Shown piece after piece: positions 15,945-27,031 of a stretch of DNA of 36,956 bases (position 1 is its first letter; every line of letters begins with the position of its first letter). Source of the stretch: a bacterium (GTDB lineage: Archaea; Thermoplasmatota; Thermoplasmata; Lutacidiplasmatales; UBA184); NCBI GenBank assembly GCA_027309555.1, contig DAIDCO010000017.1, positions 1 through 36,956 of the forward strand, read 5' to 3'. A program made the translations under genes and the position numbers. The notes beneath the pieces are model-generated. The model did no database searches and was not told where the DNA came from. It saw nothing but the letters and a program-made list of their open reading frames with translations.

Positions 15945-15953
15945 CGCTTATCC
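15945..15953 (+). promoter_or_regulatory. Candidate TATA element (CGCTTATCC) for tRNA-Ala
   Basis: A/T-containing element about 27-35 nt upstream of the tRNA 5' end. Confidence 0.35.
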
Positions 15954-15979: not shown

Positions 15980-16085
15980 GGGCCGGTAGATCAGCGGAAG
16001 ATCGCTACCTTGGCAAGGTAGAGGTCGCGAGTTCAAAGGACCGGGAGCGCGCGACGCCTCCGGTCGGAGACTCTCGCCCGGTCCA
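15980..16085 (+). tRNA. tRNA-Ala(GGC) with 34-nt intron in T-loop (position 59/60), intron 16038-16071
   Basis: Acceptor GGGCCGG/CCGGTCC with G3:U70; D-arm GATC/GATC; anticodon arm CTACC-TTGGCAA-GGTAG; T stem GCGAG/CTCGC; spliced T-loop TTCAAAT. Confidence 0.9.
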
Positions 16086-26897: not shown

Positions 26898-27007
26898 CGG
26901 GCCTGTCGGGAGTTTCCGCCTCGGGCACCCGTCGGCGCCCGGGGCCTTTGAACCCGAGTTTGCTGGCTTAGAAGGCCAGTACTTTGTCCAAGCTAAGCTA
27001 CAGGCCC
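26898..27007 (-). tRNA. tRNA-Arg(UCU) with 35-nt intron in T-loop (position 59/60), intron 26912-26946
   Basis: Minus strand: acceptor GGGCCTG/CAGGCCC; D-arm GCTT/AAGT; anticodon arm CTGGC-CTTCTAA-GCCAG; variable CAAAC; T stem TCGGG/CCCGA; spliced T-loop TTCAAAT. Confidence 0.9.
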
Positions 27008-27031
27008 GGTCGAGGGACGGCAACGCGGCGC

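Follow-up and report, generated by a model that had tools for sequence, protein, structure and literature searches.

A probable bulge-helix-bulge intron in the T-loop of an archaeal tRNA-Ala(GGC) gene and the distribution of 59/60 introns across Thermoplasmatota

A tRNA-Ala(GGC) gene in the DNA analysed here (the window, a stretch of 36,956 nucleotides in all) carries 34 extra nucleotides inside its T-loop, raising the question of whether these form an intron that is removed from a working tRNA or a lesion that has disabled the gene. Judging from the gene and its relatives, we hold with high confidence that the tRNA-Ala(GGC) gene at positions 15980-16085 is functional, apparently present in one copy, and has a bulge-helix-bulge (BHB) intron at tRNA position 59/60, which would be excised by the splicing endonuclease EndA and the ligase RtcB. 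The source lineage is very probably Lutacidiplasmatales, acid-soil archaea of the Thermoplasmatota.

Structure, detection and copy number of tRNA-Ala(GGC)

The first-pass annotation had placed an intron at 59/60 of a tRNA-Ala(GGC), and a re-read of the window letters reproduced its sequence and coordinates exactly. The gene consists of exon 1 (GGGCCGG-TA-GATC-AGCGGAA-GATC-G-CTACC-TTGGCAA-GGTAG-AGGTC-GCGAG-TTCAAA), the intron and exon 2 (T-CTCGC-CCGGTCC-A). Taking out the intron restores a canonical tRNA, with a complete 72-nt cloverleaf comprising a 7-bp acceptor that includes G3:U70, a 4-bp D stem, a 5-bp anticodon stem with anticodon GGC, a 5-bp T stem with the loop TTCAAAT, and A73; both the position of the intron and the alanine identity are thereby upheld. 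The features of this gene, and of a second interrupted gene in the window, are as follows.

15947-15952, plus strand: TATA-like element CTTATC, at -33 to -28
15980-16037, plus strand: tRNA-Ala(GGC) exon 1, 58 nt, reaching tRNA position 59 and ending in TTCAAA
16038-16071, plus strand: tRNA-Ala(GGC) intron, 34 nt, at tRNA position 59/60
16072-16085, plus strand: tRNA-Ala(GGC) exon 2, comprising U60, the 3' strands of T stem and acceptor, and A73
26898-27007, minus strand: tRNA-Arg(TCT), the second T-loop-intron gene of the window, from a model match and parsed sequence
26912-26946, minus strand: tRNA-Arg(TCT) intron, 35 nt, at 59/60

Across 73 orthologous upstream regions, the TATA-like element is kept about 30 bases upstream of the gene (AT fraction 0.86-0.90 at -31 to -29) within GC-rich surroundings. 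We infer that the tRNA is transcribed, cleaved, ligated and charged.

The suspicion that scanners would overlook the gene proved correct for ARAGORN and for Rfam at its gathering score, neither of which called it; the one tRNA reported in the window was an Arg. The Rfam tRNA model gave tRNA-Ala(GGC) only 25 bits, over a shortened span, and the ends of tRNA-Arg(TCT) were misplaced by both tools (ARAGORN 26931-27008, Rfam 26949-27007). ARAGORN and Rfam thus miss or mis-bound T-loop-intron genes, and the tRNA sets of such genomes may therefore look incomplete. A dedicated covariance model made for T-loop-intron tRNAs scored tRNA-Ala(GGC), itself part of the training set, at 87.6 bits. With this model, intron-bearing tRNAs mostly reached at least 74 bits and intronless ones at most 63, with double-intron, long-intron and long-variable-arm tRNAs falling below the 74-bit separation. 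Base-by-base parsing assigned 59/60 introns to 81 of 82 model matches. An above-threshold match on contig C116 of genome G066 was read as a tRNA-Ala(CGC) with no intron, and a second (G349 C12), at 72 nt, is too short to contain one. Counts close to the threshold may therefore include false positives.

That standard scanners leave the gene uncalled would also suit a pseudogene, in which the insertion broke the T-loop and another gene supplies tRNA-Ala(GGC); we consider this very unlikely, and conclude that the gene is not a pseudogene. A search for a second, uninterrupted tRNA-Ala(GGC), an observation that the first-pass annotation had named as refuting its reading, found none in the source genome (2.04 Mb), and the other alanine tRNAs there are CGC and TGC; a further copy could conceivably be missing from this assembly, which is about 90% complete and split over 114 contigs. 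In this soil archaeon, tRNA-Ala(GGC) is the sole tRNA found for codons GCC and GCU. No intact copy was seen in any of 61 sampled congeners, and the case against a pseudogene counts the source genome and 60 of these. The spliced 72-nt query found a strong match in 53 of the 61, and all of these matches are interrupted at base 58 or just beyond it, at the start of the intron. That one insertion point recurs in all congeners that yielded the gene is far beyond chance. One congener (G318), in which 71 of 72 bases apparently matched, was considered as a case of intron loss and rejected, as a 32-nt intron is present there. An uninterrupted tRNA-Ala(GGC) is found in a sister genus (G039, L056).

Scanning GTDB species genomes for a T-loop with a 20-45 nt interruption returned 95 records. 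Among the 80 matches listed, 77 are Thermoplasmata MAG records with an interrupted tRNA-Ala(GGC), one of them labelled Euryarchaeota, and carriers include Candidatus Lutacidiplasma silvani AcS3-62 and UBA184. In the 77 listed records the insertion lies exactly at 59/60, with introns of 27-36 nt. An Acidobacteriaceae record (L169) that fitted the scan pattern contains no tRNA there and was discarded as a chance match. Exon 1 hardly varies, 45 of 74 related records sharing one identical sequence, and the introns drift, with a mean identity of 61% vs 49% for shuffled letters. Exons that stay invariant over many species while the insert alone changes indicate selection on intact exons, which argues against a pseudogene, as does the fact that about 12 tRNAs of the source genome, several of them the sole gene for their codons, would all need to be dead.

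The same recurrence bears on an artefact of assembly or binning. The genomes derive from metagenomes, but the intron reappears in independent assemblies from several projects, one of which is the Lutacidiplasma silvani type genome (L184) and another a record whose contig is of megabase size (L142), and an artefact retains next to no probability.

The bulge-helix-bulge motif and the fate of the insert

The junctions can be drawn as a BHB motif, in which a short helix of 4 bp, relaxed here by an A.G mismatch, is flanked by two 3-nt bulges, one on each strand. Its elements are listed below; cleavage sites are predicted from BHB geometry and exon conservation.

16032-16035, plus strand: central helix, exon strand UUCA (positions 54-57), facing 16066-16069; position 57 covaries with intron -6
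16066-16069, plus strand: central helix, intron strand GGAG, forming U.G, U-A, C-G and an A.G mismatch
16036-16038, plus strand: 5' bulge AA/G, predicted 5' cleavage after 16037
16070-16072, plus strand: 3' bulge AC/T, predicted 3' cleavage after 16071
16039-16065, plus strand: inner helix and loop, 16039-16044 pairing with 16060-16065 and longer in the minimum free energy (MFE) fold

An EndA of the homodimer type would recognise a BHB made up of the T stem, exon UUCA paired with the 3' end of the intron, and the intron hairpin; its cuts would fall behind A59 and ahead of U60, and RtcB would ligate the halves to restore the T-loop. One point against this reading is the central helix, which has three pairs plus the A.G mismatch and is absent from the MFE fold: in the pre-tRNA-Ala, this fold closes the T stem and an inner helix of 7 bp and leaves the central helix open, so that this helix rests on comparative evidence rather than on energy.

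The comparative evidence comes from both helices. Over 76 distinct Ala(GGC) introns, the inner helix (+2 to +7 with -7 to -12) is 87.5% paired, against 59.0 +/- 2.0% when partners are shuffled (maximum 65.8% in 1000 shuffles) and 27-60% when the strands are slid by 1-2 positions. Opposite exon UUC, intron position -5 is always G and positions -4 and -3 are always purines in the same 76 introns. The mismatch reported in the first-pass annotation is real and itself conserved, as 69 of the 76 introns place a G at -6 opposite A57; the fourth central pair is A.G in tRNA-Ala(GGC) and A-U or G-C in other genes. This mismatch (window position 16066) adjoins the 5' bulge, at a place where A-U would be possible and occurs elsewhere. 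Across isoacceptors and families, exon G57 is accompanied by C at intron -6 in 42 of 43 cases, and exon A57, in 33 cases, by G in 20, U in 11 and another base in 2, C occurring once. Many isoacceptors and families show this association (Fisher p = 4e-19, a value that overstates certainty because related sequences are not independent). Compensatory change thus upholds the BHB pairing at the inner helix and at exon 57/intron -6, bearing out the geometry first proposed, and this exon-intron covariation is the strongest evidence for a splice motif that works at the junction.

Covariation also weighs against the idea that the insert is retained and that the mature tRNA functions with an enlarged T-loop. 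Energy folding gives a stable hairpin, which such a tRNA would accommodate; an enlarged loop would not, however, require covarying exon-intron pairing at the splice sites. The length and sequence of the intron are moreover free to vary (within the phylum, lengths run from 13 to some 50 nt), and the sister genus possesses the uninterrupted gene (L056). Retention is accordingly highly improbable, and excision by EndA and RtcB remains the preferred reading.

Two departures from the motif were seen at other 59/60 introns. The Asn(GTT) intron of the source genome (L027, G000:C108) differs from its relatives in that its central helix, UUCG against CCCA, is poor. In other Thermoplasmatota classes, introns of 13-14 nt occur at 59/60 (L346, L353, L360); these would be bulge-helix-loop motifs, as the inner helix has no space.

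Other interrupted tRNAs and the spread of 59/60 introns

Parsing of tRNA matches in the source genome yielded about 12 tRNA genes with 59/60 introns of 26-38 nt: Ala(GGC), Asn, Asp, Arg(TCT), Arg(TCG), Gln(CTG), Glu(CTC), Gly(TCC), Lys(TTT), Ser(CGA), Ser(GCT) and Ser(GGA). Four canonical introns (Trp, Tyr, elongator Met and Leu(TAA)) and three probable D-loop introns (Lys(TTT), initiator Met and Pro(CGG)) are also present; the Gly, Lys, elongator Met and D-loop introns were parsed by hand. tRNA-Lys(TTT) (L069, G000:C37:9270-9590, minus strand; also L309) apparently contains two introns, at 59/60 and in the D-loop, the latter with central helix UAGG/CCUA, and the same pair is visible in a genome of another family (G310). 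The apparent D-loop introns of initiator tRNA-Met (L063) and tRNA-Pro(CGG) (L064) have 4-bp central helices, CAGG/CCUG and UAGC/GCUG, respectively.

So many tRNAs interrupted at one site is what a homing element might produce, and a self-splicing (group I/II) or autonomously mobile, recently spreading intron has to be weighed. At 27-39 nt the introns are too short for a ribozyme, and they match no intron RNA family in Rfam. Introns within a genome are no more alike than introns between genomes (similarity scores averaging 6.7 and 6.2, with maxima of 14 and 19.5), and these scores do not support a transposition between tRNAs like that described in Thermoproteales. We give this explanation hardly any credence, and continue to regard the inserts as BHB introns.

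To place these introns phylogenetically, the T-loop-intron model was run on 300 genomes of the class Thermoplasmata. All 62 listed genomes of the source family, in 7 genera, had 2-9 matches, each of 41 congeners of the source genome having 5-9 T-loop-intron tRNAs, and other families of the class had 0-2. Members of family f8 that were parsed all have an intron of about 24 nt in Arg(TCT), and families of other Thermoplasmatota classes have 1-5 T-loop-intron tRNAs; complete genomes of families f15 and f19 gave no match above the model threshold. The 59/60 introns are thus a lineage trait here, present in 62 of 62 listed family genomes and fewer in other families, and since the same isoacceptors are interrupted across all 7 genera, the ancestor of the source family probably had most of the set already. 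The first-pass annotation had called the intron unexpected, which is true against published reviews but not within the Thermoplasmatota, where 59/60 introns are widespread and particularly numerous in the source family.

Outside the Thermoplasmatota, as labelled, T-loop-intron tRNA-Ala genes were seen in an Asgard MAG, LC30 (L183), where the tRNA apparently has an anticodon-loop intron too, and in an Aenigmatarchaeota MAG, JZ-2 (L195). A tRNA-Ala(TGC) with a 59/60 insertion of about 50 nt (L075, G057:C66:7250-7600) is preceded by repeated fragments resembling the 5' half of tRNA-Ala.

Among open-licence papers we found nothing specific on introns of this lineage, and the paper on Lutacidiplasmatales does not mention introns (PMC9287336). 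Some of them, such as the Arg(TCT) intron of f8, may already be recorded in GtRNAdb, in supplementary tables of tRNAscan-SE or in closed papers. BHB tRNA introns as such were already known; of interest here are the lineage-wide 59/60 set and the enzyme described below.

The splicing endonuclease and comparison with known systems

Non-canonical introns have been tied to EndA enzymes with CSL or ASL loops (PMC4033280, PMC12397907), Euryarchaeota have been described as having canonical intron positions only (PMC4090602), and homodimer-type EndA has been tabulated as narrow in specificity (PMC6379350), which speaks against the proposed excision at 59/60. The source genome encodes RtcB and one EndA, roughly 350 aa long, in which two tRNA_int_endo units are fused as in Archaeoglobus alpha' and the catalytic Y, H and K are conserved in the second unit, an organisation of the alpha'2 type. 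Homology to 1R0V/2GJW suggests a homodimer in solution. Two units per chain set it apart from the epsilon2 type of ARMAN, which has three. The CSL site was located through the solved AFU+CSL chimera 3P1Y as a lysine-bearing insertion beside the YG...LSL strand of the catalytic unit; alignment to solved structures is gap-free at this site, and no CSL- or ASL-type insertion was found in 56 EndA sequences of the class, which include all 7 genera of the family. The enzyme thus lacks the loop that marks broad-specificity EndA.

The source lineage does not fit the rule that a euryarchaeal enzyme goes with canonical introns only, and forms a large exception to it. Splicing at 59/60 is mechanistically plausible, because the motif is a near-strict BHB and a homodimeric Thermoplasmata enzyme, that of Ferroplasma, cuts mini-BHB RNA without a tRNA body (PMC8707768). 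A wider proposal, which we advance tentatively and think rather unlikely, is that the 59/60 introns of the family are ancient, vertical, position-specific and kept for a function, that the loop-less homodimeric EndA suffices for them, and that the loop rule is incomplete; the function might, for example, be to deny integrases an intact tRNA 3' end or to force an ordered T-arm maturation. One whole family with many T-loop introns, other families and classes with few, and a loop-less fused EndA in every class member examined make the Thermoplasmatota set a test provided by nature: is EndA limited by the position of the intron, or by the quality of the BHB alone?

Position 59/60 is already listed among archaeal non-canonical BHB introns (PMC4090602), and the introns described here resemble those of Crenarchaeota (Thermoproteales), Nanoarchaeota and ARMAN in position, BHB principle, similar length and presence in several tRNAs per genome. 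They differ in belonging to another phylum, in the dominance of 59/60 (12 of about 19 introns found) over a multitude of sites, in showing no sign of recent spread between tRNAs, and in occurring with a fused homodimer-type enzyme without the extra loop in place of an (alpha-beta)2 or epsilon2 EndA. With the 37/38 introns of Euryarchaeota (Archaeoglobus, Methanocaldococcus, Thermoplasma; alpha4 or alpha'2 EndA) they share the enzyme type and a near-strict BHB with two 3-nt bulges, but not the location, which is the T-loop. T-arm introns that need removal are likewise known from algal nuclear and nucleomorph tRNAs (PMC4090602, PMC9602550), which are eukaryotic, rely on another splicing enzyme and involve few genes. 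A further parallel is Korarchaeum cryptofilum, in which a homodimeric EndA occurs together with non-canonical introns; it has been called the sole such case and its enzyme has a specific loop (PMC4033280), whereas the EndA of the source lineage has none.
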